In this document: in pieces, positions 1 through 17,915 of the stretch | How the letters are laid out: each line of letters starts with the position of its first letter | Position numbering within the stretch: the first letter of the stretch is position 1 | Assembly (NCBI RefSeq): GCF_017301615.1 | Contig: NZ_CP059066.1 | Location: 310,001 to 374,000, forward strand | Source: Koleobacter methoxysyntrophicus | GTDB lineage: Bacteria > Bacillota > Thermosediminibacteria > Koleobacterales > Koleobacteraceae | Reading direction: 5' to 3' | DNA: 64,000 bases | Notes under the pieces: model-generated | The model's database searches: none | What the model was told of the DNA's origin: nothing | The model's input: only the letters and a program-made list of their open reading frames with translations | Position numbers and translations under genes: made by a program

Positions 1-555
1 CCTGCTTATTTTTACGTAAAGCCCTAATATTTTTTCTACAGGTTTATTTTCATCTTCTATAAGTTCCTTTAATTTTAATGAAGCGGCATTTAGCAATGCT
101 CCCTTCCAGGTACTTCCCCTTACCATCGGGGCTTTCCAAACCTTATCTTTTAGTACAGGATTATCTATTATGTAAAAGTCATCATCATCCCTTGAGAAAT
201 AAGGTAATAGGAGTTTAAATTTACACCAGATGCCGAAGGAGCCGGGTATAAGAGTTTTAGTGTAATTTTTGAATTTATCAACATCGTCAAAAATATTGCA
301 GATTCGTTGCAGGTCTCCATTTGTATTATTGATTTCCCAGTTCCTTTTATGCTGGTCTTTAAACCATGTTAAAGGGATTTCTTTAACCTTCATTTTAGTA
401 TTTATATAACTATCTGCAATAAAAGGAAAAAGCTTTGGGATTTCAGCTTTATCTTCAATTTTTTCTTCGTTCAGAGCATATTTCATTGCATTCTTTAAAA
501 AATGAAATGCATCGTTATCACCTTTTAAGTCTTCTCTTATTACTTCATAGTACAT
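1..555 (-). CDS. RAMP-superfamily CRISPR (Cmr-type) protein, 3' part beyond window
   Basis: An open frame starts at an ATG at 553-555 and runs without a stop to the left edge, giving about 185 residues of an incomplete protein. Near residues 150-160 it has a Gly-Ser-Thr-Trp-Lys-Gly-Ala-Leu stretch, which matches the G-S/T-x-K-G-x-L/F loop of RAMP (Cas7-like) CRISPR proteins. The start overlaps the end of cmr1 by 11 bases, so the two are translationally coupled in one type III operon. In canonical III-B operons cmr1 is often followed by cas10/cmr2, but this N-terminus does not look like Cas10 (no HD or palm start). It is more likely a Cas7-group backbone subunit. The exact Cmr number cannot be assigned from the fragment. 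Confidence 0.7.
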   Translation of the reverse strand, partial: MYYEVIREDLKGDNDAFHFLKNAMKYALNEEKIEDKAEIPKLFPFIADSYINTKMKVKEIPLTWFKDQHKRNWEINNTNGDLQRICNIFDDVDKFKNYTKTLIPGSFGIWCKFKLLLPYFSRDDDDFYIIDNPVLKDKVWKAPMVRGSTWKGALLNAASLKLKELIEDENKPVEKILGLYVKISR

Positions 556-1615: not shown

Positions 1616-1788
1616 TTGGGCACCCCCTGACATTTCAATCTTACAAACACTGCCAAAAATTAAACCACTTTCACAATTATATGACAATTTATATAAATTA
1701 TTCTACATTTTTACCTAAATTCCTGCAGAAAATATAAAATAATCCTATTAAGGTAAAAAATACCCATATACAATTCTTTTGTTTAAAC

Positions 1789-1813
1789 TAAAAAAAAACG
1801 GCTATCAGCCGTT
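1789..1813 (-). terminator. Rho-independent terminator
   Basis: Read on the minus strand, a 7-bp stem (AACGGCT / AGCCGTT) with a 3-base loop is followed by a run of eight T. It lies 130 bases past the stop of the pRiA4b-like gene and separates that gene from cmr1. The rest of the 1616-1944 interval is AT-rich and shows no gene. Confidence 0.75.
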
Positions 1814-1944
1814 TCTAATATTAATATAAGCAGCTTTATCCTTTGTAAAATTTTCGAGGTCTCCTAATTCATTTTTTTTAATCTTAGACCGCTTCTTAAT
1901 TTACTTCCTGGTGGCGGCTGCCATATTTTATTGATTGCGAAAAT

Positions 1945-2970
1945 TTATCGTTTATACATCTCTCTCAGTGCCTGATTAACTTCCTCAAGGTCAAACTCCT
2001 CTGGATCAAATTCGCCGCCCAGCCACTCAATGAACATCTCGTATTCCTCATGTTCAGGGTTATCGACTATCTCAAGCAGGTGATAATATCCCGGTATGCC
2101 TCCGCAGTCCTCGGGCGGACATGCCCTTTTGCCTTTTATGCATACGGGATAAGAAACCCCTTCTTCAGGTTCTAAAATTTTCTCAAGGAGCAGTTGGTGT
2201 TCCCAATCATCACCGAAATCATAGGTATAGATGCATTTCTCTTTTTCTGCTTCGAAAAAGGAATTAATTGTCGTTTCTCTTGAATTAAAGGTTTCTCCCC
2301 ATTCAAAAAATCCGTCTTCTTCATCAGAATCCGAAATTGTTATTTGATCCCATCCCTTGCCAAAAGTAAAAGAATACAAATGATAACCGCACCACCCCAT
2401 TACTGTCTGAATGATTCTGTGCAGTTCTTCGAAAGTGATATCGGATTTAACCTGAATCCTCCTCCAGATAGGCGGTCTTATTCCTTTAAGGGTAATTTTG
2501 AACTGATATATTTTATTACTGTTAGCAGCAGTCTTCCCCTTATTATGCTCCTTTTTATTTTTAGAATTTTTCAGACTACTTAGAACCTCTTTATAATGTT
2601 TCCCAAGAGCAGCGGCAATTCGCTCTAATTCGTTTCCGCTTAGTGGCTCGGGCTGTTGGGGTTTATTCTGCTTCTTAATCTCGTCTTTTTCATGCTTTGC
2701 TGCTATACCCAGCAGGTCTTGAAGCAGCTGTTTCCCTTTCTTCAGCTTGTCCGCGTCAGAGGCCTGAAGCAGCAAACTGTTATTTTCCAAAATTATTGTG
2801 CCAAGGATTGCTTCCTCTAAGAATTCTTCTTTAAATGGTATATCAGAATACAGCAAAAATGTATATCTCTTATCTTTATTATTCTTATAGTTCAGTCGGA
2901 TAACTGATGATGATTCTAAAATCTTTTTGATAAACTTCCAATTCTTAACGGAATATAGAGCCGTACACAT
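1945..2970 (-). CDS. Plasmid pRiA4b ORF-3 family protein
   Basis: The protein has 341 residues. The C-terminal half (from about residue 160) is a clear pRiA4b ORF-3 / IS1096 TnpR-like domain. It contains Pro-Pro-Ile-Trp-Arg-Arg-Ile near its start, the Tyr-Asp-Phe-Gly-Asp-Asp-Trp-Glu-His core motif, and an Ala-Cys-Pro-Pro-Glu-Asp-Cys-Gly-Gly cysteine motif. The N-terminal 150 residues are less conserved, with a Lys/Gln/Glu-rich linker around residues 95-150. The start at 2970 is chosen because AGGAGG sits 9 bases before it; the TTG six codons further upstream overlaps that site. The biochemical function of this family is not established. It has its own terminator, so it is probably transcribed separately from the cmr genes that follow. 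Confidence 0.8.
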   Translation of the reverse strand: MCTALYSVKNWKFIKKILESSSVIRLNYKNNKDKRYTFLLYSDIPFKEEFLEEAILGTIILENNSLLLQASDADKLKKGKQLLQDLLGIAAKHEKDEIKKQNKPQQPEPLSGNELERIAAALGKHYKEVLSSLKNSKNKKEHNKGKTAANSNKIYQFKITLKGIRPPIWRRIQVKSDITFEELHRIIQTVMGWCGYHLYSFTFGKGWDQITISDSDEEDGFFEWGETFNSRETTINSFFEAEKEKCIYTYDFGDDWEHQLLLEKILEPEEGVSYPVCIKGKRACPPEDCGGIPGYYHLLEIVDNPEHEEYEMFIEWLGGEFDPEEFDLEEVNQALREMYKR

Positions 2971-3014
2971 TTTACGTTTCCTCCTCAAATTATATATTTT
3001 TTATATCGTCTTTC

Positions 3015-3911
3015 TCATACCGCTTCTTCTGCCGTTTTTAATTTTATAAACAGGTAACATTCTGCAGAATTTATTTGAATAACACCGGAGGCTGTATCCT
3101 CATTTAAGGAAATAGCCCCTTTGGACCCATCCGGGCCTTCCAGCTTTAAATTATCATGTCTATAGGCATAGAAATCGACGGCAGGTATTTTATTTCCTTC
3201 AGGCTGTGATACCTGTTAAAATAGCTTATGATGGCAATTATCTCTCTTTTGTCTTGTGCGGATAAATCCCGGGTTGGCCTCACTATGGTGCCGTTCTGAA
3301 TCATGCCGTTTCTATCCAAAATACTCTCAAACCTCAGGTTTTGGCTGTACTTTGAAATGGAATAACAGCTCCATGGGCCTATAACAGACAAAAGCGATAT
3401 AACAGCTATAGAGGCGGCAAGCACTACATTCCTAGGCTTTTTCGCAAAGATAAAATAAAGCATCGCACCGGTCACCCAGAGCCCAACAAGTATAACAAAG
3501 TACCTGCTCTCGGTTACCCCATAGGCAATGACCCTTTTTCCCATGGATATGAACATCATCACTAAGAGGGGAAGTATAAGCACCGGGAAAAATGAGGTAA
3601 ATGCCTTTGTAGTACAGCACAAGCCCAACAGACGCTGCGATATAAATGGCTGACCTTATACCTTTTTTTAGGGCCGGCACTCTTTCGAAAAATACCTTTA
3701 TGCTGAGAAATACCGGGACACCCAGTGCCAAAACCATGACAGTCCGCAAAATCATTTCCTCTGTCTCTCTATCGTAATAGGGCTTCATGTGAACCAGGAA
3801 TATAGCTACTGACACAGCAGCAGCCATCAGTATTGCTTCAGGGAAACGCTTTATGCTCAAAATAAACTTGGTAACAATATTTCTGCAGAATTCAATAGTT
3901 CTTGTTTTCAC
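3015..3911 (-). pseudogene. Decayed DUF4153-type membrane protein gene
   Basis: Three minus-strand frames together make a recognisable but broken DUF4153 family membrane protein. The first segment (from a GTG at 3911, RBS GAGGTG) reads about 110 residues with several hydrophobic segments. Near 3585 the homology jumps to another frame, which carries the Gly-Lys-Arg-Val-Ile-Ala-Tyr-Gly-Val-Thr-Glu-Ser-Arg-Tyr segment and the Ile-Gly-Pro-Trp-Ser block. Near 3185 it jumps again to a third frame ending at 3015-3017. Joined, these give about 290 residues, while family members are usually near 550-650. A large internal piece is therefore gone, in addition to the two frameshifts. No single frame is likely to give a working protein. 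Confidence 0.75.
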
Positions 3912-4069
3912 AGCAGCACCTCGCAGTATTTTATTTATAGAGAATATTCCTATTTATTGTATTCTACGCCACCACCAATAATACCTCCATCAAGTGAAAA
4001 AACTAGGGAATTTTTTTGTTTTATAAAATAACATGAAATATCTTGCAGATTTGAAATGTTGTATTTTAT

Positions 4070-4246
4070 TTAGATCAGCCAGCCATAATCCTGGCGGCAA
4101 TCCAGTATACAGTCTATATAAACCGTGTCACCCTTGATTTGGTAGATGGGCAAATACCGCTTATTCACAAGCAGTTTTCTATATTTAGATGATACCTTTT
4201 GACAGCAAGCAAAAAAACTGCTGTTTACCTTAACATAAAATCTGAC
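4070..4246 (-). pseudogene. ParE/RelE-type toxin remnant
   Basis: A 58-codon frame ends at a stop at 4070-4072. Its last 40 residues match the C-terminus of ParE/RelE-type toxins: Lys-Tyr-Arg-Lys-Leu-Leu-Val-Asn, then Tyr-Gln-Ile-Lys-Gly-Asp-Thr-Val-Tyr-Ile, then Asp-Cys-Arg-Gln-Asp-Tyr. The N-terminal half is missing: the frame is closed by a stop just upstream, no plausible start is visible, and no antitoxin gene lies beside it. It is probably a dead remnant, next to the intact hicAB pair. The rest of 3912-4300 is AT-rich without other recognisable content. Confidence 0.6.
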
Positions 4247-4303
4247 TTAAACAAAACATTCAGCCTCCTTATGATAAAAACTACAATATTCTTATATGCT
4301 CTA

Positions 4304-4332
4304 TTGACACGTCTTATAAGACGTGTTATAAT
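4304..4332 (+). promoter_or_regulatory. hicAB promoter with palindromic operator in its spacer
   Basis: A consensus TTGACA (4304-4309) and TATAAT (4327-4332) are separated by exactly 17 bases. A perfect 20-bp palindrome (4307-4326) fills the spacer and the last half of the -35 box. A repressor bound here would block RNA polymerase. HicB-type antitoxins usually repress their own operon, so HicB with its C-terminal DNA-binding domain is the likely ligand. Confidence 0.85.
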
Positions 4333-4356
4333 GTAATCGTTAGGAGGAGAAAGTAA

Positions 4357-4548
4357 GTGAAATCTTACTCGTCAAGAGAAGTAATTAAAATACTCGAACA
4401 AAACGGGTGGTACTTAAAAAGAATAGTTGGAGACCACTACCAATACACAGACGGACACAGGTTGATAACAACCAAGCATCCAGTCAAGGATTTAGGAATA
4501 AAAAACTTAAAAAGCATTGAAAAACAAACAGGGATTAAATTCAATTAA
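4357..4548 (+). CDS. hicA: HicA family mRNA interferase toxin
   Basis: The protein has 63 residues, the full usual length for HicA toxins, which have a double-stranded-RNA-binding-like fold and cleave RNA independently of the ribosome. The Ser-Ser-Arg-Glu-Val-Ile-Lys-Ile-Leu-Glu start, the Gly-Trp segment, and Gly-Asp-His-Tyr-Gln-Tyr with the likely catalytic His27 are all present. So is the C-terminal Thr-Lys-His-Pro-Val-Lys-Asp-Leu-Gly segment. The start is a GTG, 9 bases after AGGAGG. hicB follows 40 bases downstream, in the common toxin-first order. The gene looks intact. Confidence 0.92.
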   Translation: MKSYSSREVIKILEQNGWYLKRIVGDHYQYTDGHRLITTKHPVKDLGIKNLKSIEKQTGIKFN

Positions 4549-4588
4549 TTCCTGACTTTCCCCTGAAAACCTAAAAGGAGGTATCATC

Positions 4589-4999
4589 ATGAAAAAGGAT
4601 ATTTATGTTTTCCCGGCTATTTTAACTCAATATGAAGATAATATCGGCATTACATTCCCCGATTTACCCGGTTGCGTGTCAAATGCCAAAAATATGGATG
4701 AGGCCGTTAAAAACGCGAAAGAAGCTTTAGCACTTCATCTGTTCGGCATGGAGGAAGATGGCATTGATATTCCATCTCCTTCACCTATTGTTGGTCTTAA
4801 ATTAGATTCAAACGAAATTCCATTACTGGTTGAAGTTTATATGCCTTTATACCGGAATGCTATAGAATCTGCAACGGTTAAAACAACCGTAACTATGCCA
4901 CAGTGGTTAAAAACTTTAGCTGAAAAAAAGAATGTTAATTTCTCTCAATTGCTTCAATCAGCATTAAAAGAGCATCTGGGCATCCAGGACAGGCCATAA
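4589..4999 (+). CDS. hicB: HicB family antitoxin
   Basis: The protein has 136 residues in two parts. Residues 1-60 are the HicB partial RNase H-like fold, with Pro-Asp-Leu-Pro-Gly-Cys followed by Ala...Ala-Lys-Glu-Ala-Leu. Residues 95-136 look like a ribbon-helix-helix DNA-binding domain (Thr-Val-Thr-Met-Pro-Gln-Trp-Leu, then a helix-turn-helix-like stretch). The first part would bind and neutralise HicA; the second would bind the palindrome in the operon promoter. An AAAGGAGG ribosome site precedes the ATG. Confidence 0.92.
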   Translation: MKKDIYVFPAILTQYEDNIGITFPDLPGCVSNAKNMDEAVKNAKEALALHLFGMEEDGIDIPSPSPIVGLKLDSNEIPLLVEVYMPLYRNAIESATVKTTVTMPQWLKTLAEKKNVNFSQLLQSALKEHLGIQDRP

Positions 5000-5012
5000 A
5001 AAGCCTGTATTT

Positions 5013-5245
5013 TTTGTGTGCTTGAACCCCCCAGAGGTGGGGGATTCTGTTTAAACACGAGAACGTTATACACGCACTCTAGTTGGGACGTTTTATCGCC
5101 CCCCCTGTCCGCATCAGATTGGTAGCCACATTTTATGCATTTAAACCAGCCTTGGGCCTTACGATTATACCGGAAAGCATTCCCGCACTTCGGACAGGTC
5201 TTGGAGGTCTCCTTGGGGTCGACGTAGATTACGGCTTTAAACTAT
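5013..5245 (-). mobile_element. IS200/IS605-type element remnant (TnpB zinc ribbon and right end)
   Basis: On the minus strand, about 50 codons from 5242 encode the C-terminal zinc ribbon of a TnpB protein. Visible are Tyr-Val-Asp-Pro-Lys-Glu-Thr-Ser-Lys-Thr, Cys-Pro-Lys-Cys-Gly-Asn, then Cys-Ile-Lys-Cys-Gly-Tyr-Gln-Ser-Asp-Ala-Asp. The rest of tnpB is absent; the fragment stops just before the Nudix gene's ribosome site. After the Ser-Asp-Ala-Asp motif the reading becomes degenerate. A GC-rich imperfect hairpin (CCCCC...GGGGG, near 5030-5050) resembles the right-end hairpin of these elements. It is a dead fragment left from an old insertion. Confidence 0.8.
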
Positions 5246-5273
5246 GTATTTTTTTCTAATGGGAGGAATTATA

Positions 5274-5714
5274 GTGGAACTAAAAGTAGCCGCAAAGGCG
5301 GTAATAATAAAGAACAATAGGGCTCTGGTTATTACACGATCCCGGGAGGAAATGGATAACGGAGAATTCGAAGGTATAGAAATCATAGACCTGCCCGGAG
5401 GTATCATAGAACCAGAGGAAAGAGTCGAAGTGGGCCTGCAAAGGGAAGTTATGGAAGAAACAGGGCTCAGGGTTGAAATAATCAAGCCTGTACTGGTGTC
5501 AGACCACTTTGCCCCGAACCTTCATATAGTGGGAATCCTGTTTCTCTGCCGTTATGCAGATGGCCGGGTAAAACTGGGTCCTGAGCATGATGGCTACTAT
5601 TGGGTAACGGTGGATGAACTAAAAAAAATGGACAGCTCTTCCTGGGCTGTACACAGAGTAGAACTGGCCTTCAAGGAATATAGAAACTTTATGCGGACTT
5701 TCACCACCACCTAG
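5274..5714 (+). CDS. Nudix hydrolase
   Basis: The protein has 146 residues with a complete Nudix box, Gly-Gly-x5-Glu-x7-Arg-Glu-x2-Glu-Glu-x-Gly, at about residues 43-65. Nudix enzymes hydrolyse nucleoside diphosphates linked to another moiety; the substrate cannot be told from the sequence. The GTG start at 5274 is chosen for the GGGAGG site 7 bases upstream. The in-frame ATG 30 bases earlier has no such site and lies against the TnpB remnant. The gene stands alone between that remnant and a terminator shared with the converging cas3. Confidence 0.88.
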   Translation: MELKVAAKAVIIKNNRALVITRSREEMDNGEFEGIEIIDLPGGIIEPEERVEVGLQREVMEETGLRVEIIKPVLVSDHFAPNLHIVGILFLCRYADGRVKLGPEHDGYYWVTVDELKKMDSSSWAVHRVELAFKEYRNFMRTFTTT

Positions 5715-5742
5715 CTATTGCCCATGCCGGGCGCACGTTTAT

Positions 5743-5775
5743 AAACCCTGCAGTTTTCCGCTGCAGGGTTTTAAT
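5743..5775. terminator. Bidirectional terminator between Nudix gene and cas3
   Basis: An 11-bp perfect stem (AAACCCTGCAG / CTGCAGGGTTT) with a 7-base loop has A-rich and T-rich flanks. It lies between the stop of the plus-strand Nudix gene and the stop of the minus-strand cas3, and can serve both. Confidence 0.8.
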
Positions 5776-8013
5776 TTATAGAAACAAAGGACCTTGATCC
5801 TCTTTTAAAAACGCTCCTAGGTTCCTATCATATTTTAAATCACAGAATAACAAGCCATCCTCCATTCTCGCATATTTTCTGGCAAACCAGTAAGGAATCT
5901 TAACTTCATACCATTTACGTTCTCCTGCAGGCAGTGATTTTACTTCATTATAGAAGCATAACGGTATGACTGATATGGTTTCATATCTGGAAAGGCGTGT
6001 TTTTTCAAGCTCATCTTCTGTCAGGCGGTTATCAAGAATGCAAAGTCGATTTTTTTGACAAACATGAAATTGATCTCGTGCCTGCTGAAAGGCTTCTGAA
6101 AGCCTTATATCATAATCATCATATACCTCCTCGATGACATCTAACAGGTCTTTTTCCTTCATGTTCCGGGGGCTTTTGTTAAACGTTCGAAATGTCCTTT
6201 CAAGCAGTTCTTTATCATTTAAAGGATTGTAAATTCTCTCGGATTTGTGCCCCGCTTTATAAATTATTACACGACTATCCCTTTTGGGGTCTCTATATCT
6301 GTTTACTCGGCCGGCCCGCTGCACAATGGCATCGGGTGGAGCGCATTCCGTAAAGAGCCAATCAAAATCAATATCCAGGGAAACCTCAACGATTTGCGTA
6401 GCTATTACAAACCTAGCATTATCTATGTTTTTTTCTATCTCTTTCCTGTCCTTTAAAATAAACCTTGAGTGTAAACAAACAGGGTTAAAAACCTTGAATT
6501 TCTCTGTAAGCTGCTGACACTTGTCTACTGTATTAACGACTACCAGCACTTTATGCTCGGACAGAACTGCTTGCTCAATTTCATTATATGCCTCGTCAAT
6601 GAAATAGGGTTTCACCCAATATGTGCTTCTTTGTTCATTCAGAAGTTCTGTATCTTTGATTACAGCCGCATCGTCTAGACATTCCTTCAGCAAGTCTATT
6701 AAATAGCATGGCATTGATGCACTCATTAACAAAAAGCGGGCACCTAATTCTGCATAATGCTTAATAGATGAAAATATCAGCCCCATCGTCCAACCATCAT
6801 AAGCGTGGATTTCATCCATTATTATTACCGCATTGGCAGCATTTATTTCCTTTACAGCCCAGTGCTCGGAATTAAAACCTGTGTTTAATAACTGGTCTAT
6901 CGTCGCTACAGTTACAGGTCTTATAAAGGCCCTGTCGAAAAGCATATTTCTCGTGGATGTGACCTCTTTTTCGAACTCCATTTTTTCTTCTTCCTCACGA
7001 AACATTAAATTAGAAGAAGAATGGGTTAGGCCAACTCGTTCACTCCCAAAAATCTCTGCTAACCTCAACCACATACTATTGGCAGTTGCCATAGTAGGCA
7101 GCAGATAGATAATCTTTGAACTACCTAAATCCTTTGAATTGTTCAATGCCCACAACAAAGAGGCTTCAGTTTTGCCGCTTCCAGTTGGGGCAATAACAAT
7201 CAGATTCCCTCTGTAAGAACCTACCGATTTTTGGAATTCCCTAAGGCCATTAAATATAATACCTTTTTCCATGCATCTAGTTTTTATGTTACTTATAATA
7301 TCTTCCGGTGTGTTTTCTACACTATAATCTACCGATATACCTGCAGAACCGTACCAATCGGCATAATGTAAAATTCCCTTCATAAGGCTGTATACCACTC
7401 TAATTTTCCGCGGGTTTTCTCTTTGGATAAATTTAGGAAGCAAACTTATAGTTTTAATCAAGTATTTTAAGCCATTTACATTTATAAGCCTCTCCTCATC
7501 CAACTCTGGAAAGGGGTAATTTTCAAGAGAAAATATTTCTTCGGCAGTCTGTAAGGCTTCTTTAATTCCATTTTTACAGAAATTCGGAAGTTTTGATAAT
7601 TTTTCTCTCTCGAAAGCAGTTAAATCTGTATCCAGTCTCCTGTGATGACTTGCTACAGCAAACAATTCAAAAGGAAAGGTAATATCCCTGTTCTCATTAA
7701 TTTTATTAAGAGCTGCGAGGATAAATGCGATAGATGCCAGTTCATGTCTGTAGTTTTTTCGATAGTCAACCTTTTTATTATGTTTTTTCGCTTCCATAAT
7801 ACTTTGAAAAGGCTCTATCATTTTGCCGATATCGTGTAAAACTACCGTAAGTAATGACCCCTGAAGAAAATCTTCTTCTGTAAAAGAAAAGATAGAGGCA
7901 AGCCTACAAATTAGTTTTTTCTTATATTTCACAACTTCTTTCCATGCATGGTAGACCGCCTCTACATGCTCTCTATAGGATTGATCCGGTTTTGCGTAAA
8001 ATATCATCTTCAT
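5776..8013 (-). CDS. cas3: CRISPR-associated nuclease-helicase Cas3 (HD plus DExH)
   Basis: The protein has 745 residues and is the single-chain Cas3 recruited by Cascade to unwind and degrade target DNA. The N-terminal HD nuclease shows His16, His60-Asp61, His90 and His123-His124. The helicase has Walker A Pro-Thr-Gly-Ser-Gly-Lys-Thr (276-282), a DEIH box (400-403), Ser-Ala-Ser-Met-Pro (motif III) and Gln-Arg-Ala-Gly-Arg-Val-Asn-Arg (motif VI). All catalytic residues that can be recognised are intact. The start codon overlaps the cas5 stop in an ATGA, so the gene is translationally coupled as the last gene of the cas operon. A terminator follows at once. Confidence 0.96.
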   Translation of the reverse strand: MKMIFYAKPDQSYREHVEAVYHAWKEVVKYKKKLICRLASIFSFTEEDFLQGSLLTVVLHDIGKMIEPFQSIMEAKKHNKKVDYRKNYRHELASIAFILAALNKINENRDITFPFELFAVASHHRRLDTDLTAFEREKLSKLPNFCKNGIKEALQTAEEIFSLENYPFPELDEERLINVNGLKYLIKTISLLPKFIQRENPRKIRVVYSLMKGILHYADWYGSAGISVDYSVENTPEDIISNIKTRCMEKGIIFNGLREFQKSVGSYRGNLIVIAPTGSGKTEASLLWALNNSKDLGSSKIIYLLPTMATANSMWLRLAEIFGSERVGLTHSSSNLMFREEEEKMEFEKEVTSTRNMLFDRAFIRPVTVATIDQLLNTGFNSEHWAVKEINAANAVIIMDEIHAYDGWTMGLIFSSIKHYAELGARFLLMSASMPCYLIDLLKECLDDAAVIKDTELLNEQRSTYWVKPYFIDEAYNEIEQAVLSEHKVLVVVNTVDKCQQLTEKFKVFNPVCLHSRFILKDRKEIEKNIDNARFVIATQIVEVSLDIDFDWLFTECAPPDAIVQRAGRVNRYRDPKRDSRVIIYKAGHKSERIYNPLNDKELLERTFRTFNKSPRNMKEKDLLDVIEEVYDDYDIRLSEAFQQARDQFHVCQKNRLCILDNRLTEDELEKTRLSRYETISVIPLCFYNEVKSLPAGERKWYEVKIPYWFARKYARMEDGLLFCDLKYDRNLGAFLKEDQGPLFL

Positions 8014-8717
8014 AATAATCCTACCGCCTTATCTCCTATTAATAATCCATTTATCGGTTTTTTTAATTTTACCGGGACATCTACAAAGGTAAATAACTGC
8101 CTTTTTCTTACACGCCGTTCATTTCCATTAAATTCAAAATCTGTAGGTAACAGATAAACACGGGGCATGTATATGTTCTGCAGCAAAGGTAATTCTTCTA
8201 TTTTAATGTCGGACTCGTAGTTGCTCCCATGGTCCCCTGCCAGCACGGTATAAGAAAAGCGGTAATAGGGCTGAATTTCCTGTTCTTTTGCAGGCGAAAT
8301 ATATTTGACTTTGAGGAGGTCATCACTATTTCCTGCTGTCAGTGCATATTTAGGGTTAGTAAATGCCTCCCTTATGTATTGAACTGCTTTTTCATCTTCA
8401 GCGGCAAAAACCAATATCAGTGACAGGTCATATAAAAATTCCCTAACCAAAACAGCAGAAATTGTTTCACTTGCCTTTATCTTTTCATATTTCCATAAAT
8501 CCCTAAAAACCCCGCTATGGGTCCCCATTACACCAAAATGAACCTTATTTGCCTTCGCAAACTCCAGGGCTTCTTCCAGTGATAAGCCGACAGCCGCACC
8601 CATCATTCCGGTTATAGTGGTAACAGGAGGTAAGGGCAGGGTTTGCTGGAAGGTATGAGCTTCCGGCAAACGGAAAGAAGCGGTAGGTGCATAAGCCTCA
8701 AGAAAAAAGTAATACAT
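8010..8717 (-). CDS. cas5: Type I-B Cascade subunit Cas5
   Basis: The protein has 235 residues and belongs to the RAMP superfamily Cas5, of the form found in I-B (Tneap-type) operons. The N-terminus shows the Cas5 pattern: an aromatic-rich first strand, Ala-Ser-Phe-Arg, and the Pro-Pro-x-Thr-x2-Thr-Gly-Met-Met-Gly-Ala motif. Cas5 caps the 5' handle of the crRNA and joins the large subunit to the Cas7 backbone. The ATG has AGGTGAG upstream. The spacing to cas7 is 8 bases, and the end overlaps cas3. Confidence 0.92.
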   Translation of the reverse strand: MYYFFLEAYAPTASFRLPEAHTFQQTLPLPPVTTITGMMGAAVGLSLEEALEFAKANKVHFGVMGTHSGVFRDLWKYEKIKASETISAVLVREFLYDLSLILVFAAEDEKAVQYIREAFTNPKYALTAGNSDDLLKVKYISPAKEQEIQPYYRFSYTVLAGDHGSNYESDIKIEELPLLQNIYMPRVYLLPTDFEFNGNERRVRKRQLFTFVDVPVKLKKPINGLLIGDKAVGLL

Positions 8718-8725
8718 AATCTCAC

Positions 8726-9616
8726 CTATTTCATTTTATAATAGTCTGATATCCATCTTTCCATTGTTTTAAAAGCCTCTCCTATGCTCACCACATCTTC
8801 GGGTATATTGGGAAACATCTCCTTTTTTGCTCCTATTACACTATCAATGATTTCCTGCTGGTAATCCTTCAAGGTTTCCTGAATTAAGCCGAAATCAATA
8901 CCTTTTTCAGTTGCAATAACGGTTTCAAGAAAAATCGGGTTCTTAACCCTCATAAGGGCTGCTGCTACAAACTTAGGAGAGATATCCGCCAGAAAGCGGG
9001 TCTGTCTGCCTGTAGACCAAAGGTTTTTTATGGCCTTAAGGAGTGCATTAACCCTTTCTGCTTTCTTATCAGGTTCTAAATCTTTCTTAAAACCTTCACC
9101 ACACCCCACACGGTCAAGTTCTACCAGTATGGTCCCTCGATAAATGCCGGAATGAATCTCGGTTTCAAAAATATTTGGAGTCCCCCCTGCCTCTACACCC
9201 ATATAATTGGTTCCAAAATCCAGGTCACCGCTGTACCGGTCAAAGGAAATAAGAGGAGAAACCCTGACGGGAGATGTCCTTTTATTAGCACTACCTTTGG
9301 CTCCCTCTTCTCCCTTTTCGGTTCCCATAAAACCGAAGAGGTCGTCATCTATGAAATCATCGGGGTTTTGCTTGGTAGTGGCAGCACCCTTTTCAATTTT
9401 AGCCGCTACTCCTTCAGATAGCTCCCATCCCATGGTTGCCAGCTGTTCCCTTAAAGCCCTTCTTATCCATTGAGAAGAACCATAGGGGAATTGTTCAACA
9501 CCACGGGTTATCTTTTTTATGCTGGATATATTATCGGCTTCTTTATCAGACCCGTTTAAACTGGAAATAGAGGTCTTGGTTAAGTAAGTGATAGTCAGTG
9601 CTTTCGCATCCTTCAT
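8726..9616 (-). CDS. cas7: Type I-B Cascade backbone subunit Cas7 (Cst2/DevR family)
   Basis: The protein has 296 residues and matches the Cst2/DevR branch of Cas7. It opens with Leu-Thr-Ile-Thr-Tyr-Leu-Thr-Lys-Thr-Ser-Ile-Ser-Ser-Leu-Asn-Gly, then an Arg-Gly-Val-Glu-Gln-Phe-Pro-Tyr-Gly-Ser-Ser segment. A central Arg-Val-Ser-Pro-Leu-Ile-Ser follows a charged Asp/Gly-rich linker at about 80-115. A Thr-Gly-Arg-Gln-Thr-Arg-Phe segment lies near residue 205. Cas7 polymerises along the crRNA spacer. A strong GAGGAG site precedes the ATG. Confidence 0.93.
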   Translation of the reverse strand: MKDAKALTITYLTKTSISSLNGSDKEADNISSIKKITRGVEQFPYGSSQWIRRALREQLATMGWELSEGVAAKIEKGAATTKQNPDDFIDDDLFGFMGTEKGEEGAKGSANKRTSPVRVSPLISFDRYSGDLDFGTNYMGVEAGGTPNIFETEIHSGIYRGTILVELDRVGCGEGFKKDLEPDKKAERVNALLKAIKNLWSTGRQTRFLADISPKFVAAALMRVKNPIFLETVIATEKGIDFGLIQETLKDYQQEIIDSVIGAKKEMFPNIPEDVVSIGEAFKTMERWISDYYKMK

Positions 9617-9652
9617 AATACCATCTCCTCGCTAGTAATTTTGTGAATGTCT

Positions 9653-11386
9653 TTAATCTTTTTCATCTTTTTTAGGGTTAACCGCATAGTAATAGCTGTT
9701 CAATGCAGCGATCATACAGAACTGTTTAAATTCCGAGAAATTCTCGTGGGTGAGTTTTCCCTCATATAAATCTGAAGGCAAAACAAAATTGCTGCCCAAT
9801 TTAAACTGCAAACGGTTCAGCTGCTCTAAAAAATCCACCATAGTTCGGGTTTTTCTCAAAGCGTAAAGGTCACCCTTTTTACCGTTCTCGCTCTTTCCCA
9901 CAGCCATCCCTATTATGCGCCCAAGTCTTACGGCCGCATCTTGCTCCTCTTTAAACAATGGTTCACCTTCTTTCAATGTATTTTCATAGACCAGCAGCAT
10001 ATCCAAAAGGGGTTTAAAGCCGGCAAGGTCTGCATGGTATACATGCTTTTCTACTAGGTCCAAAATAGACCTTTTCGAAAGGATTCGCTCCAATACCCTG
10101 TTTCGGGTCATGGATTTTGCTTCATTTGATGATTCAGTGTAATCCAATAAAAACGGCAGGATGCTCTTCATCCTGTATCCTGTTTCGGTCTCGAGCTTTT
10201 CAATCAACCTGAAAAAATAGACGGTATCCTTAAAAGGCCATGCAGACTTTACAGGCACGGAGTTCTTCTCTTTCTGGGCATGAATTACATAGAACTCAAC
10301 AGGTGCTTTATTAATTGTCAGGTCGTACATTGTTTCCAGGTCAAGCTGAATTTCATCCCCTTCTTCCTCCCGGGCATATTTGCGGATTAACAATTTGTCA
10401 TAGAGGGTATAAAGAAAAGCGAAGGTTATTTCGAAGATATGCTGAAAGTAAGGCCCAAGGGGGTGGTTGAAGTTTTTGTAGAGATTTGGATCATCATATT
10501 TTATCTCCTGCAAAAGGTCATAAGTATCCACCATCTTTTCGAGAGAATTTGAATATGGCAAAAATGCAAACAGATGGTTTCCCTGATACATGTAAAACCC
10601 GCTGACGGGAACGAATTTTCCTAAAAGAGAACACTTCCAGCAAACCTTTTCAGGTTTTCCTGCATTGGAATTAAAAGAAAGGAGGCCGCTGGAACCGGTG
10701 ATAAGGGGAAAAACCGTTTGATTTGCCTCTTCTAATTGGCTTGATGGCTGTCCGCATAGATAGCAATTTCCTTTGTTTTTACTAGATTTTAGTTCTATTT
10801 TCATTTTTGGCATTACAGCATTAGGGCCATTCAGGAGCAGTCCTGAAGTAGTCACATCAATACCGTGTTCATCCAGAAACTTGTCCATCCGTTCCTGTAA
10901 ATGGGCATATTCTTTGGGAAGAACGCCTCTCTTTCTTTTTACCTGTTTTCCTCCAAATTCGATTTTTTTCTCATACTTTTTCTCCCATTTGACCATGCCC
11001 TCTGTGGGTCTGGGGGCTTTGTTGTAAATAACCTCTGCAATACCCATAGATTTGCGTTTAGGGAAACTTACAAACTGGTCTTTTTCTTCATCGTAATAAA
11101 AGTTATAAGAACTCAGGTCATCCTTCTGCTTCTTAGTCGATAAATTATAATAATTTTCCGTCATATAGTTGTATGCAGTCGTCAATACCCGTTCTATTTC
11201 ATCTAAAGGGCCTGACAATACCAGTTGAGCATCATCTGTACGGACCGTAACCTGCCCGGTATCAATAGATCCTAACGTTTTGATAAGCCCAACCAGACCG
11301 GAATCAAGCCAAAAATGCCCGTGTTTATTAAAGGAAATCTCTCCTTCTTTCCCTTTTCGCAATGATTTAGTATTCAGTTTTTCCAC
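9653..11386 (-). CDS. cas8b1: Type I-B Cascade large subunit Cas8 (Cst1 type)
   Basis: The protein has about 577 residues and occupies the large-subunit position between cas6 and cas7. It carries a Cst1-like zinc-binding insert: Cys-Tyr-Leu-Cys-Gly and Cys-Trp-Lys-Cys, with cysteines near residues 208, 211, 249 and 252. The large subunit recognises the PAM and recruits Cas3. The frame is open from a GTG at 11395, but that codon is part of the GGGGAGG site itself. The GTG at 11386, 8 bases after the site, is the better start. The gene overlaps the 3' end of cas6. The family is divergent, so the subtype name rests mainly on the zinc motif and the neighbours. Confidence 0.9.
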   Translation of the reverse strand: MEKLNTKSLRKGKEGEISFNKHGHFWLDSGLVGLIKTLGSIDTGQVTVRTDDAQLVLSGPLDEIERVLTTAYNYMTENYYNLSTKKQKDDLSSYNFYYDEEKDQFVSFPKRKSMGIAEVIYNKAPRPTEGMVKWEKKYEKKIEFGGKQVKRKRGVLPKEYAHLQERMDKFLDEHGIDVTTSGLLLNGPNAVMPKMKIELKSSKNKGNCYLCGQPSSQLEEANQTVFPLITGSSGLLSFNSNAGKPEKVCWKCSLLGKFVPVSGFYMYQGNHLFAFLPYSNSLEKMVDTYDLLQEIKYDDPNLYKNFNHPLGPYFQHIFEITFAFLYTLYDKLLIRKYAREEEGDEIQLDLETMYDLTINKAPVEFYVIHAQKEKNSVPVKSAWPFKDTVYFFRLIEKLETETGYRMKSILPFLLDYTESSNEAKSMTRNRVLERILSKRSILDLVEKHVYHADLAGFKPLLDMLLVYENTLKEGEPLFKEEQDAAVRLGRIIGMAVGKSENGKKGDLYALRKTRTMVDFLEQLNRLQFKLGSNFVLPSDLYEGKLTHENFSEFKQFCMIAALNSYYYAVNPKKDEKD

Positions 11387-12149
11387 ATTTCTCACCTCCC
11401 CTCGCTTCTAATACTTCCATACAGCCGAATCCCTGGCTGTTCTTGCTTCCTAGGCCGCAGTCAATAGCAATTTGAAGGAGCTGTGGATGTCCTTTTAGCA
11501 AAAATTTTCCTGAATATCCTTTTATAATAAAGTTTTTATACTGGGTTATATTCATTTCATATTTTCCCAACCTTCTAATAAATACGTTCCCATCGGGAGG
11601 CTCTTCTTTGTGCAAGGCTTGATATTTCCGCTTAAGGTTATCGGAAATTAATCGACAGTAGTCCGGTTCACCGGGACTAAAATAGCAGGTAAATTTACCG
11701 CCTTCGGGCTTAATAAAAGTGCTGTAAACCACAACAGGAGAAAGGGTTTGCATTACAACCTGTTCCCTTTTAATATTTACCCTCTTTGCGAACATCCTTT
11801 CTATTTCAGTATCTACTTCTCCTAGCCTCATAAATCCCCTGGTGAGCAAAGTGTTCACTAATGATTGACAAAACTCATCGATTGGTGAAGAGATAATCAG
11901 CTTCATTCCTTCCTGAAAGCAAATTCTTTTATTCCTTCGGTCTAATCGAAATCTCCCCCCAAGTCGTGAAAAACAAAACATTTTAAAGCTTCTATCCCCT
12001 GCTAAAAAACCATGGTTATGCAGAAATTCTGCCAGCTCACTGCTTATAGAATTATAAATGGCTGATTGCAGTATATAGTTATAGCCTATAGGTAGTTCTA
12101 TTGGATTTTTCCCTGCTTTAAAATGGATTTCAATTTGAATCTTTCTCAC
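11367..12149 (-). CDS. cas6: CRISPR pre-crRNA endoribonuclease Cas6
   Basis: The protein has 260 residues, with the Cas6 double RAMP fold. The C-terminal glycine-rich loop Gly-Leu-Gly-Ser-Lys-Asn-Ser-Gln-Gly-Phe-Gly-Cys is unmistakable. His44 and His46 in the Phe-Leu-His-Asn-His-Gly segment are candidates for the catalytic histidine. Cas6 cuts the repeat RNA to release crRNAs; the array it serves is not in this window. It is the first gene of the operon, 98 bases after the WYL regulator gene. That gap has a TTGACA (12231-12236) and a TATAAT (12202-12207) on the minus strand. Their spacing is 23, so the promoter is uncertain or needs an activator. Confidence 0.95.
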   Translation of the reverse strand: MRKIQIEIHFKAGKNPIELPIGYNYILQSAIYNSISSELAEFLHNHGFLAGDRSFKMFCFSRLGGRFRLDRRNKRICFQEGMKLIISSPIDEFCQSLVNTLLTRGFMRLGEVDTEIERMFAKRVNIKREQVVMQTLSPVVVYSTFIKPEGGKFTCYFSPGEPDYCRLISDNLKRKYQALHKEEPPDGNVFIRRLGKYEMNITQYKNFIIKGYSGKFLLKGHPQLLQIAIDCGLGSKNSQGFGCMEVLEARGGEKCGKTEY

Positions 12150-14103: not shown

Positions 14104-14372
14104 AATATCACTCCAAACTTAAAGAGGAAATTCCATAATTTTGTATTAACATAAATAAGCAAAAATGCAATAATATAAACAGATAAAGATGAAACAGTTT
14201 CAAGATTAGGGTAGTTTTTTAGTAAAAATATTTCAGGTTGATTTCAGCAGTAATTAGAAATAAAATATAATCATAGAAGATTTTAAATAGAATATTTTAA
14301 AGGACGTACGTAACAGCTACCTTATTCCCGACAATACTTGACAAAACATAACAAATATAATACCATAAACTT

Positions 14373-15044
14373 ATGAAACTATTAACCATAAGCAAAGCGG
14401 CAAAGAAATTAGGTGTACATCCGAACAGCCTGCGCAACTGGGAGAAGCAGGGCCTGATCAAGCCAGTCCGTTTACCTAGCGGCCAGCGCCGGTATTCCAT
14501 GGACGAACTCAACAGGCTTTTGCAATCCGGCCAACTGGATGCCGGGCAGAAAGACGTCGTTCTGTACGCCCGAGTGTCTACCAAAAAGCAGGCCGACGCG
14601 GGAAACCTGGATCGCCAGATAGAGCGGCTGCGGCAGTACGCCCGTGAAAACGGTTTTACCGTTAAGGCCGAATTCACCGATGTTGCTTCCGGCTTAAATC
14701 AGAAGCGTCGCGGTTTAGCGAACGTGCTCAAGCTGGCCGAGCGGGGTGAATACAAGAAGCTCATCATCGAATATCCTGACCGGCTGGCCAGGTTTGGGTA
14801 TTCATACATTGAGCGGCACCTGCACTACTGCGGGGTAGAGGTAATTGCTACAGCCGAGAAAGAGCCGGAAGACGCGCAGTCAGAACTGGTTAGGGACTTA
14901 TTGGCGATAATCACGTCTTTTTCGGCACGGCTGTATGGCGCAAGGGGTGGCAAGAAAGTCAGGCAGGGTTTTAGGGAACTGATAGCGGGGGTGTCTCAAG
15001 ATGAAGAAAGGGAAAAAGGGCAAAAAGAAGTTAAACGATACTGA
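14373..15044 (+). CDS. tnpA: IS607-family TnpA serine recombinase (resolvase)
   Basis: The protein has 223 residues. Residues 1-52 are a MerR-like helix-turn-helix (Leu-Thr-Ile-Ser-Lys-Ala-Ala-Lys-Lys-Leu-Gly-Val-His-Pro, then Gly-Gln-Arg-Arg-Tyr-Ser). Residues 60-200 are the serine recombinase catalytic domain, with Tyr-Ala-Arg-Val-Ser-Thr (nucleophile Ser69), Asp-Arg-Gln and Tyr-Pro-Asp-Arg-Leu-Ala-Arg-Phe-Gly. This N-terminal DNA-binding order is typical of IS607 transposases. The enzyme is full length with all recognised catalytic residues, so the element may still move. Its 3' end overlaps the next gene by 44 bases in another frame. Confidence 0.95.
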   Translation: MKLLTISKAAKKLGVHPNSLRNWEKQGLIKPVRLPSGQRRYSMDELNRLLQSGQLDAGQKDVVLYARVSTKKQADAGNLDRQIERLRQYARENGFTVKAEFTDVASGLNQKRRGLANVLKLAERGEYKKLIIEYPDRLARFGYSYIERHLHYCGVEVIATAEKEPEDAQSELVRDLLAIITSFSARLYGARGGKKVRQGFRELIAGVSQDEEREKGQKEVKRY

Positions 15045-16710
15045 TAACAGGATAAGCTACACCGTATGCGGCGAGTTTTTCCCGGAAGCTTACCCCGCTT
15101 TCCGCTCTCGAAAGTGGAGCCATGGGATGGAGGACCCATTAGACACCGAGATGCGGCTGTTCTGCTCCTGCACCCGCTGGGCATTTAACCGGCTGCAGGA
15201 AAACAAATCACGGGAAGAGCTGAAGAAGCAGGCCCAGCAGGTATTCGGCCTAAACTCCCGCTGCTCTGATGACGCCATACTGAAGGCCAAAGCAGTAATC
15301 GAATCTCAAAAAGAGCTTCTGAAGCTAGAAATCGAAGATACAGAAGCAAAGCTTGCCCATGCCAGAAAGAAACTCGGCCGGGCAGAAAAACATTTGGACG
15401 AAGCCATTAAGAAAAACAACCTGGTAAAAATCGAGAAATTCAAGCGCACCGTGCACGGCCGCAAGGCCAGAGTGAAAAAGCTAGCAGATAAGCTGGCCGA
15501 CCTGCAGGCTCACCAGCACAACGGCACCATACCAGCAGTAGTTTTTGGCGGGCGTTCTTTATGGAAGAGAGTCTGCAAGGGTAGAGCTACAAGAGAAGAA
15601 TGGCGGCAGGCCCGGCAGGACAGATTATACAGCCGCGGCGATGAGACCAAAGGCGGCAATCCAAACATCAAGATAAGCTATCAGAACGGAGATTTCCGCC
15701 TCTCAGTGGCCATTTCTCATCTATCCGAACAAAAAGGCACGGACATCAAAGGCAGGCCAGTAATGACCAGAGCGCCCCGTGTAACGGGCAAGCTCTGGCT
15801 GCCTGACAAGCACCGGTTGAAGGTCCTGGAGCTGCTCTCATCCGGTGCACCCTACACCGTAGAGCTGATCAAAGGCAGGGACAGCCGGTACAGAGTGCAC
15901 ATCACTTTTGCCGATGCAGCGCCCGACTTAGTAACTAATCCCAACCTGGGCTGCCTGGGTATGGACACCAACCCCGACGGAGTGGCCTTAGCCAACGTAG
16001 GATACACCGGCCAACCCGAGCCCTGGCCGGAGGGTTTCGAGGCACCCTACCCGAAGGCTTTACACAAATTCAACGGAGAGTTCCAGGTAACGGTGCACCC
16101 CAATGGTTTTTTATACATCAAAATACCGGAGCTGGCCTACAGCCGCGGGTACCGGCGCGCCTACCTAATCGGTGTTTCAGCTAAAGTAGTGGTGGACATA
16201 GCCAAAACTTTAGGCAAACCCATCGCTTTAGAAAAGCTGGACTTCGGCAAAGACCGGCTGGACACCAATAAAGAATTCAACCGCATGGCGGCCAACTTCC
16301 CGTTCAAGAAGATGGTTGAAGCCGTCATCCGCAGGGCATTCAAAGAAGGCGTCGGTGTAAAACCTGTTTGGCCGGCACACACGTCCACTATAGGCTATTA
16401 CAAGTACATGGACCGTTACGGCATAGTCATCCATCACGCCGCAGCACTGGTAATAGCCCGGCGGGCGATAGGTTTCAGAGAGCGTATTACCAACGAATTA
16501 AGACAGAAAGTCCAGGTACTTAAAGAGAAGCTGAACCAAAAAGCAAATTCCTTACCTGGGGAAGGAAAAGGGATGACCCGAAAGGTGAAGCAGCTCTTCA
16601 AGCGGCTGGACAGAAAGATTCCTATACAAAACGGGCTGACCCGTTTTCAGCAGGAATCATTTTATTCCGTCTGGCATGACTTGAAGCAGCTTGCATTGCT
16701 GAATAGGTGA
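15001..16710 (+). CDS. TnpB-related protein lacking zinc ribbon and third RuvC Asp
   Basis: The protein has 569 residues and lies in the tnpB position of the IS607 element. It belongs to the group annotated as IS200/IS605-family accessory TnpB-related proteins. RuvC-I is visible as Gly-Met-Asp322-Thr-Asn-Pro-Asp-Gly and RuvC-II as Ala-Leu-Glu411-Lys-Leu-Asp-Phe. The C-terminal block Thr-Ser-Thr-Ile-Gly-Tyr...Tyr-Gly then reads Ile-His-His-Ala-Ala-Ala-Leu-Val-Ile-Ala-Arg-Arg (from 477). Histidines stand there where canonical TnpB has the RuvC-III Asp, and no Cys-x2-Cys zinc ribbon is found. Residues 95-172 form a long charged coiled coil. Canonical TnpB is about 370-450 residues. It could be a nuclease with a rearranged site or a catalytically changed RNA-guided binder. 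GGGGGTG precedes the ATG. Confidence 0.82.
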   Translation: MKKGKKGKKKLNDTDNRISYTVCGEFFPEAYPAFRSRKWSHGMEDPLDTEMRLFCSCTRWAFNRLQENKSREELKKQAQQVFGLNSRCSDDAILKAKAVIESQKELLKLEIEDTEAKLAHARKKLGRAEKHLDEAIKKNNLVKIEKFKRTVHGRKARVKKLADKLADLQAHQHNGTIPAVVFGGRSLWKRVCKGRATREEWRQARQDRLYSRGDETKGGNPNIKISYQNGDFRLSVAISHLSEQKGTDIKGRPVMTRAPRVTGKLWLPDKHRLKVLELLSSGAPYTVELIKGRDSRYRVHITFADAAPDLVTNPNLGCLGMDTNPDGVALANVGYTGQPEPWPEGFEAPYPKALHKFNGEFQVTVHPNGFLYIKIPELAYSRGYRRAYLIGVSAKVVVDIAKTLGKPIALEKLDFGKDRLDTNKEFNRMAANFPFKKMVEAVIRRAFKEGVGVKPVWPAHTSTIGYYKYMDRYGIVIHHAAALVIARRAIGFRERITNELRQKVQVLKEKLNQKANSLPGEGKGMTRKVKQLFKRLDRKIPIQNGLTRFQQESFYSVWHDLKQLALLNR

Positions 16711-16925
16711 CCCCGTTTAGCCGGAGTTCGGACAAACCGGTAGGCCGCATCTAACAGATTGCGTAGAGGCGTCCTTCATAAGACCGCTCAAAAGGATAAC
16801 ACAGGACGGAAGCCCGGTGGGGTTCATTCGCCCCGAGTGGTTTCCCGCAAGCCCGCGTCTTGTGCCCATTGAGCGCAGTTCTCCCGTCCGGGTGGGACTC
16901 CCGGGGCCGAGGTCTCCCTGTCACC
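16707..16925 (+). ncRNA. Candidate omega-RNA-like structured RNA of the IS607 element
   Basis: This is a non-coding GC-rich segment of about 219 bases right after, and touching, the stop codon of the TnpB-related gene. Its first six bases GGTGAC (16707-16712) are complementary to its last six GTCACC (16920-16925), giving a possible closing helix. Inside are GGGG/CCCC (16819-16822 with 16831-16834, 8-base loop), CCGG/CCGG (16721-16724 with 16737-16740) and a long-range GGACGG/CCGTCC pairing (16804-16809 with 16884-16889). Guide RNAs of TnpB are usually made from this exact place, the 3' end of tnpB and the element's right end, with the guide lying just outside. Transcription and folding are inferred, not shown. 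Confidence 0.5.
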
Positions 16926-17048
16926 CCAGAAAAAATTTTTATTTTTAATGGAAATGGAGGTGTAAGGCCTGGTCATGGGGAGGCCGCTTAACAAGGAATG
17001 ATATAATGTGTCAGGAATTGTTAAGTTTTTTGAACCAGGTTTTCACTT

Positions 17049-17915
17049 ATGAAGACTGTTATTATCGCGGATTCGTGCAGTGACCTTCCCCTCAATTACG
17101 TAGAAGAGCAAAACATCCCGATTGTGCATTTCCCTTTTAATTTCAAAGGGAAAGAATATCATGATGATTTCGGGAAGACCCTGTCTTACAAGGAGTTTTA
17201 TGATGCAGTAAGGGCCGGTGAAATGCCTACTACATCTCAGGTCAATGTCCAGACATTTATCGATATATTCAAAGGCTTTGTAAAAGAAGGGCACTCCGTG
17301 ATCTACATGGCATTTTCTTCTGCTTTAAGCGGTACATACAGCAATGCAGTTCTAGCCAGGAATATACTTATTGAGGAATATCCCGATGCAGATATCACGG
17401 TCATCGATACAAAAAGCGCATCCCTGGGAGAAGGGCTGCTGGTATACTATGCTATCGATATGCTGAAAAAAGGAGCCCAAAAGCAGGAAATCATCGATTG
17501 GGTAGAAAACAACAAACTGCGGTTGAACCACTGGTTTACCGTTGAAGACCTGGGACACTTAAAAAGAGGGGGAAGGTTATCGGGAGCCGCTGCTTTTATA
17601 GGAACCGTCCTGAGTATAAAGCCCGTCCTGCATATAGATGATGAAGGCCGGCTGATCCCCGTCTTAAAGACAAGGGGCAGGAAGAATTCTCTGAATACTT
17701 TAGCGGACATGCTGGAAGAGAGGATAGTTGAACCCGAAAAACAGGTTATCGCCATAAGCCACGGTGATTGCCTCGATGATGCCCTTTATCTGAAAGAATT
17801 GGTTTTGGGAAAGGTAAAAGTTAAAGATTTGATCATCAATAACATTGGTCCGGTTATAGGGAGTCATTCAGGCCCGGGAACCGTTGCCCTGTTTTTTTTA
17901 GGGGAACACCGTTGA
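17049..17915 (+). CDS. DegV family fatty-acid-binding protein
   Basis: The protein has 288 residues, full length for the DegV family. These proteins bind a fatty acid in a cleft between two alpha/beta domains, and some (FakB) hand it to the kinase FakA for phosphorylation. Visible signatures are Ile-Ile-Ala-Asp-Ser-Cys-Ser-Asp-Leu-Pro at the start, Pro-Thr-Thr-Ser-Gln-Val, Phe-Ser-Ser-Ala-Leu-Ser-Gly-Thr-Tyr and Leu-Gly-His-Leu-Lys-Arg-Gly-Gly-Arg-Leu-Ser. An extended -10 element (TG-A-TATAAT at 16999-17007) lies 42 bases before the ATG. The ribosome site is weak. The 147 bases that follow hold no recognisable gene. Confidence 0.9.
   Translation: MKTVIIADSCSDLPLNYVEEQNIPIVHFPFNFKGKEYHDDFGKTLSYKEFYDAVRAGEMPTTSQVNVQTFIDIFKGFVKEGHSVIYMAFSSALSGTYSNAVLARNILIEEYPDADITVIDTKSASLGEGLLVYYAIDMLKKGAQKQEIIDWVENNKLRLNHWFTVEDLGHLKRGGRLSGAAAFIGTVLSIKPVLHIDDEGRLIPVLKTRGRKNSLNTLADMLEERIVEPEKQVIAISHGDCLDDALYLKELVLGKVKVKDLIINNIGPVIGSHSGPGTVALFFLGEHR

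Follow-up and report, generated by a model that had tools for sequence, protein, structure and literature searches.

A zinc-ribbon-less IS607 TnpB with histidine at the third RuvC position, in a family of elements that insert at Shine-Dalgarno sequences

A stretch of 64,000 nucleotides from Koleobacter methoxysyntrophicus (contig NZ_CP059066.1, positions 310,001 to 374,000; hereafter the window) carries a complete IS607-family element, whose TnpB, a protein of 569 amino acids, has histidine in place of the third catalytic aspartate of the RuvC domain. The element comprises tnpA, an overlapping tnpB, and a structured right-end RNA (reRNA, or omega RNA), and it ends just before the start of a gene encoding a DegV-family protein. 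The features and their coordinates are collected in Table 1.

The element and the predicted structure of its TnpB

TnpA (223 amino acids) also matched the Pfam families Resolvase (1.6e-23) and MerR (1e-13), and its catalytic motif YARVSTKKQ is intact, as in a serine recombinase of the IS607 type with an N-terminal helix-turn-helix (HTH). Multi-copy ends and exact empty sites revealed neither terminal inverted repeats nor a target duplication, and placed the exchange at a GG dinucleotide. The boundaries were set by comparing multiple copies: the left end lies directly after GGAGG and the right end at 17039, with the right exchange GG at 17038-17039. An initial annotation, made from the sequence of this DNA alone, had proposed an IS607 element with a large TnpB-related protein, which our profile matches bear out, but had put its right end at about 16930, a position that falls within the element. 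The window copy is the only one in its genome, and a G-to-C change at 14305 has left it with CG as left exchange dinucleotide and GG as right one, so that this copy may be incapable of excision.

The 569-residue protein matched three TnpB models of NCBIfam (NF040570, 7.8e-15; TIGR01765, 3.1e-9; TIGR01766, 1.1e-7), partly under the cut-off, and a Pfam scan gave no gathering-level match, which marks it as a strongly diverged TnpB. A sequence search of solved structures returned nothing useful. Structure prediction, which the initial annotation had suggested, was carried out with AlphaFold2 using 28 homologs as input, and the resulting model has a predicted local distance difference test score (pLDDT) of 78.6 and a predicted template modelling score (pTM) of 0.64. 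Its best 12 fold matches in the PDB were all Cas12 enzymes (Cas12f, Cas12m, and CasX), with TnpB 8exa at rank 19, and the global TM-scores were low; profile matches and the fold matches to Cas12f, Cas12m, and TnpB agree on a RuvC fold. The model places D322 in strand 1 (318-324), E411 at the end of strand 4 (408-411), and H478 at the beginning of the last RuvC helix (477-489), as in TnpB and Cas12. Helix 461-473 lies where other TnpBs have a zinc ribbon, and the long coiled coil noticed earlier is modelled as a long helical hairpin, which in the alignment is a gap in the nearest relatives that have aspartate at position 478.

Table 1. Features of the IS607-family element (positions in the window)
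Feature	Position	Strand	Evidence or remark
Left target remnant GGACG (family consensus GGAGG)	14302..14306	+	Shine-Dalgarno insertion target; left exchange dinucleotide at 14305-14306
IS607-family element	14307..17039	+	Right end TTTTTTGAACCAGG invariant across copies; flanks fully divergent beyond
tnpA, IS607 serine recombinase with N-terminal MerR-like HTH	14373..15044	+	NCBIfam NF033518, 1e-59
tnpB, 569-aa zinc-ribbon-less TnpB with Asp322/Glu411/His478	15001..16710	+	NCBIfam TnpB models, fold matches
Long helical hairpin, residues 86-174, inserted in REC region	15256..15522	+	Helices 86-137 and 141-174, pLDDT ~86-95
Asp322, RuvC-I catalytic Asp	15964..15966	+	145/145 relatives
Asp326, RuvC-I hairpin, candidate compensating acid	15976..15978	+	D/E in 106/110 His-type, D in 3/25 Asp-type
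Glu411, RuvC-II catalytic Glu, canonical position, end of strand 4	16231..16233	+	144/145, one gap; strand 408-411
His478, RuvC-III Asp position, start of last RuvC helix	16432..16434	+	His in 110, Asp in 25 relatives
reRNA scaffold	16706..17039	+	tnpB stop codon to element terminus; 47-sequence alignment
CCUGGU, 5' arm of terminal reRNA helix	16968..16973	+	Pairs with 17034-17039 in at least 46/47 sequences
ACCAGG, 3' arm of terminal helix and right end of element	17034..17039	+	Covariation, multi-copy ends
Putative guide, first ~20 nt after right end	17040..17059	+	Covers DegV-family start codon; position from right-end boundary

Histidine 478 in the zinc-less TnpB family

TnpB and Cas12 proteins are usually described as requiring an Asp-Glu-Asp triad, and a C-terminal zinc ribbon is present in many TnpBs, though not in all. 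Residues were counted in 145 non-redundant zinc-less TnpBs, in 138 of which position 478 could be scored, the remaining 7 being truncated open reading frames (ORFs) that lack it. D322 and N324 are invariant, E411 is present in all but one, which has a gap there, and the third residue is histidine in 110 proteins, namely the window protein and 109 relatives (His-types), aspartate in 25 (Asp-types), and another residue in three. The RuvC-III block of the window protein, with His478 inside, reads IHHAAALVIARR; that of the Asp-types reads KDVAAAYVIARR and stands in gapless register with HHAAALVIARR of the window protein. The initial annotation had seen RuvC-I Asp322 and RuvC-II Glu411 in place and had found both the third aspartate and the zinc ribbon to be lacking. 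All of this holds, with one amendment: the RuvC-III block is not decayed, but has undergone a lineage-wide replacement of aspartate by histidine.

Several other explanations for the unusual centre were discarded. A hidden zinc ribbon was rejected, as the CxxC pair occurs in none of the 145 proteins, the window protein included. Asp471, proposed earlier as a substitute third acid, lies in a column that reads E/K/R/Q and is not conserved, and a Fanzor-like shifted glutamate is at odds with the canonical, invariant E411. Nor is this copy a lone mutant or a pseudogene among aspartate-bearing homologs, a case that the earlier reading had named as one that would overturn it: the histidine is retained in relatives down to about 25-35% identity, and the gene is under purifying selection.

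Relatives with 60-81% identity were found in 34 of 399 genomes of the phylum, a count that includes some genomes with only 30-40% identical relatives; they are often multi-copy and occur in genera such as Desulfofundulus, Moorella, Carboxydocella, Thermovorax, Fervidicola, and Symbiobacterium. In a maximum-likelihood tree computed without the columns in question, the His-types make up what is essentially a single clade, and the whole tree requires at least two changes between Asp and His. Codon 478 among the His-types is CAC in 79 cases and CAT in 31, and the ratio of nonsynonymous to synonymous substitution rates (dN/dS) is 0.09-0.24. The single deep clade, the use of both histidine codons, and the low dN/dS together argue that His478 reflects a maintained function under purifying selection rather than decay. 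The clade is ancient, and since no member of either type has the CxxC pair, the zinc ribbon was lost before the gain of histidine or independently of it.

Relatives were also encountered in phages and on plasmids. A protein-only scan of viral sequences gave no relative, and profile scans gave 6 and 18 viral loci; the Thermus phages Lalka8, Lalka27a, Lalka27b, and phiLo carry TnpB-family relatives akin to the zinc-less family. An unannotated 21.8-kb plasmid record of Klebsiella pneumoniae (NZ_CP061967.1, 3300-4604) encodes a relative of 32% identity; such a protein would not be expected beyond thermophilic Bacillota, and contamination is possible. On the Ammonifex degensii plasmid pADEG01 (1035-3910), iscB is followed after 15 nt by a gene for a zinc-less TnpB of the His-type, so that two distinct families of RNA-guided nucleases adjoin; the stretch shown contains no annotated TnpA.

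Insertion at Shine-Dalgarno sites and the right-end RNA

The left flanks of the elements finish in GGAGG in 62 of about 68 copies, and the DNA further upstream is variable. Exceptions such as GGTGG and GAAGG occur within one genome, which indicates that these bases come from the target. At 56 of 67 distinct right ends (84%), an ORF of 60 amino acids or more has its start codon 4-13 nt downstream. The same spacing occurs at 13.8% of the 15,610 GG sites used as background (p = 3e-37) and, among 452 background GGAGG sites from about 165 kb of window and flank DNA, at 20.6% (p = 7e-24). When the flanks of one insertion (genome G121) were joined, they matched a second genome (G279) at 405 of 405 bases, where the intact empty site, AAAATTGGAGGTCTACGTTATGG, contains GGAGG; other, less exact empty sites were recovered for G121, G384, and G365. 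The insertion target is thus GGAGG, a Shine-Dalgarno sequence. The window element conforms to this pattern, with 9 nt between its right end and the start codon (17049) of the DegV-family gene.

Asp-type and distant His-type elements share the same ends and the same GGAGG target, so the landing rule is older than the histidine, and the change from aspartate to histidine left the lifestyle of the elements unaltered. No description of a Shine-Dalgarno landing rule was found in the literature searched. IS607 TnpA by itself prefers only (G)GG (PMC6188088), and 23 IS607 TnpBs cut at the target-adjacent motifs (TAMs) AGGAG or GAGGG (PMC11061315). Given these two preferences, the bases of GGAGG beyond GG are what a TnpB TAM would impose, and by analogy the GGAGG at the left end (GGACG in the window copy) is the probable TAM.

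The reRNA, about 330 nt long, is supported by covariation in 47 sequences: 58 pairs were identified, 25 of them with changes on both sides. Pairing held in 96.1% of cells, compared with 31-52% when the partners were slid, and none of 500 shuffles equalled the alignment on any measure. Its terminal helix, CCUGGU/ACCAGG, closes on the final base of the element, which places the exchange GG inside the reRNA scaffold; in another IS607 reRNA, the exchange GG likewise lies within the scaffold (PMC10711439). A structured right-end RNA that finishes at the element boundary is what is expected of a TnpB locus. No Rfam match was obtained at E <= 1 in the window or at E <= 0.5 in five relatives, and assignment to a known RNA family, including RAGATH-18, was therefore rejected. 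By analogy with published IS607 TnpBs, the nucleotides directly after the right end (17040-17059) would serve as the guide.

Among loci with full context on genome contigs, 16 carry TnpB without TnpA, 11 carry both, and one carries TnpA without an intact TnpB. Carboxydocella thermautotrophica (CP028514) alone has about 17 copies of TnpB plus reRNA at different Shine-Dalgarno sites; those examined retain no more than a remnant of tnpA, and the copies are presumably mobilised in trans.

Possible function of an Asp-Glu-His TnpB

We propose, with a probability of roughly 0.6, that the window TnpB works as an RNA-guided DNA endonuclease whose RuvC centre, formed by D322, E411, and H478, is of the Asp-Glu-His (D-E-H) type, and that it retains the element, or allows it to home, through a Shine-Dalgarno TAM. 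In such a cycle, TnpA would exchange the circular form at the GG of GGAGG within a Shine-Dalgarno site, transcription of tnpB would read through the right end, and the resulting reRNA, closing on the terminal ACCAGG, would carry the start of the neighbouring gene as its guide. The ribonucleoprotein (RNP) would then recognise GGAGG together with the guide-matching sequence, a combination that only the empty allele offers, because the occupied right junction reads CCAGG and not GGAGG. Cleavage of the empty allele, followed by repair from the occupied copy, would restore the element, with His478 acting as a putative metal ligand.

A precedent exists in the RuvC resolvases of Thermus and Deinococcus, where the third active-site residue is histidine, the enzyme is active, and the change H143D increases activity (PMC3834835). 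These proteins share the D-E-H site, the RNase H fold, and the helix position with the window TnpB, although they are Holliday-junction resolvases and not RNA-guided. By this analogy, the D-E-H TnpB is probably a slower enzyme. The initial annotation had considered altered or absent nuclease activity. The centre is indeed altered, but neither a loss of activity nor the further suggested role of mere DNA binder or helper of the recombinase finds support: D322, N324, and E411 are invariant, the element, its right-end RNA, and its insertion rule are those of the Asp-types, and many copies that have lost TnpA still have an intact TnpB.

Several points weigh against an active nuclease. In ISFba1, an IS607 element, alanine at the third aspartate of TnpB (D371A) abolishes cutting (PMC11061315), cleavage by every His-type TnpB is something that we infer, and an RNP that only binds would fit all of the sequence evidence equally. 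The GGAGG rule could stem from the TnpA of this family instead of TnpB, and the copies without TnpA come mostly from one genome.

The strongest alternative, which we consider less likely, is that the change from aspartate to histidine abolished cutting and left a nuclease-dead RNP that binds GGAGG-flanked gene starts and, comparable to TldR or Cas12m, blocks transcription of the empty allele or aids TnpA. Besides the ISFba1 result, Cas12m proteins, even those with Asp-Glu-Asp (D-E-D), bind without cutting (PMC11013384), Cas12m2 also has a coiled-coil insertion in its REC region (PMC10442227), and Cas12m is among the best fold matches. Like the window protein, Cas12m and TldR are TnpB-derived, RNA-guided, and non-canonical in RuvC; unlike it, they are domesticated or CRISPR-linked, whereas here tnpB lies with tnpA in a complete IS607 element. 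TldRs are further marked by an inactivated RuvC and by non-transposon genes as neighbours, a description that the window protein, with D322 and E411 intact, does not fit. The Cas12m2 structure moreover has the first Asp and the Glu replaced (H-D-D; PMC10442227), while all 110 His-types retain D322 and E411 and are changed only at RuvC-III. His-type elements are also still mobile under the same insertion rule as their D-E-D relatives, and, since the TAM is missing at the occupied site, an RNP limited to binding would be left without a target in the host that carries it. The RuvC precedent, the different location of the changes in the non-cutting Cas12m2, and this lack of a target lead us to favour an active, perhaps attenuated, nuclease.

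Less probable still is an active enzyme with a permuted centre, in which Asp326 of the RuvC-I hairpin would supply the third acid and His478 would act as general base or second ligand. The only acids conserved in the His-types are D322, D326, E411, and E494, and D326 alone among them is free in the Asp-types, which have His (20 of 25) or Asn (4) at position 327 instead; the distribution of D326 makes it a candidate compensation for His478. The RuvC-I hairpin (window 15964-15981) and RuvC-III together have a mirror-like arrangement, with DxNPD and a RuvC-III His in the His-types and DxNAxPxH/N and a RuvC-III Asp in the Asp-types. The coupling between H478 and D326 is a suggestive pattern, but it rests on two independent events in the tree, for which a sign test is uninformative; six of the 110 His-types lack Asp326 (two of them have Glu), and the residue may merely shape the hairpin. 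Neutral decay, with TnpB as a degenerating passenger and the histidine and missing ribbon as loss-of-function mutations, might be read from the single window copy and its CG left dinucleotide, but is refuted by the fixation of histidine in a deep clade, the dN/dS values, the intact 569-residue ORF, and compensatory changes in the reRNA.

The window element shares features with several known systems and differs from each of them. ISFba1 shares the transposon family, a TnpB downstream of a serine TnpA, and a right-end RNA that finishes at the boundary, and its G/A-rich TAM (AGGAG or GAGGG) resembles GGAGG; its TnpB, however, has about 390 amino acids and a D-E-D centre (D194/E290/D371), and its reRNA is of the RAGATH-18 type (PMC11061315), whereas the window TnpB lacks the zinc ribbon, has the long hairpin, and is paired with an reRNA that matches no Rfam family. 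Also close are the Asp-type zinc-less TnpBs (annotated at NCBI as 'IS200/IS605 family accessory protein TnpB-related', TIGR01765/TIGR01766) of, for example, Thermus plasmids and multi-copy Bacillota elements, which are homologous across RuvC and share the absence of a ribbon, the ACCAGG right end, and the GGAGG start-codon target, but differ in the RuvC-III Asp, in His or Asn at 327 instead of Asp326, in a RuvC-I hairpin two residues longer, and, in the nearest of them, in the absence of the long hairpin. Fanzors and pro-Fanzors, too, are of IS607 TnpB descent and depart from the usual RuvC centre; in Fanzors, the RuvC-II Glu has moved to six residues before the zinc finger and RuvC-I has DPG (PMC10711439), while the window protein has DTNPD (DxNPD) at RuvC-I, a canonical Glu411, no zinc finger, and its change at RuvC-III.

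Directly left of the element, on the minus strand (5776-12149), lies a type I-B CRISPR-Cas operon encoding Cas3, Cas5, Cas7, a 580-residue ORF product without assignment, and Cas6; no CRISPR repeats were found in window positions 1-6000. With Cas3, Cas5, Cas7, and Cas6 of its own, the operon makes up a complete type I-B set, and the TnpB sits in an IS607 element, which does not fit a type V Cas12 acting as effector of a linked CRISPR array.

A broader and more tentative proposal is that these elements form an old Shine-Dalgarno homing lineage, with the ribosome-binding site as TAM and the host gene start as guide, in which one clade was rebuilt on Asp-Glu-His with Asp326 compensating, giving a slower or nicking enzyme that would limit damage at gene starts. 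If true, nearly any gene start would be a potential home. The Shine-Dalgarno rule ties a nuclease TAM to translation start sites and predicts both TAM and guide without experiment. Elements that are still mobile have preserved histidine as the third residue since the clade arose long ago, and the natural D-E-H and D-E-D pairs, with their shared target rule and reRNA plan, would cleanly reveal how this residue contributes to cutting, nicking, or binding, to metal preference, and to trans-cleavage.

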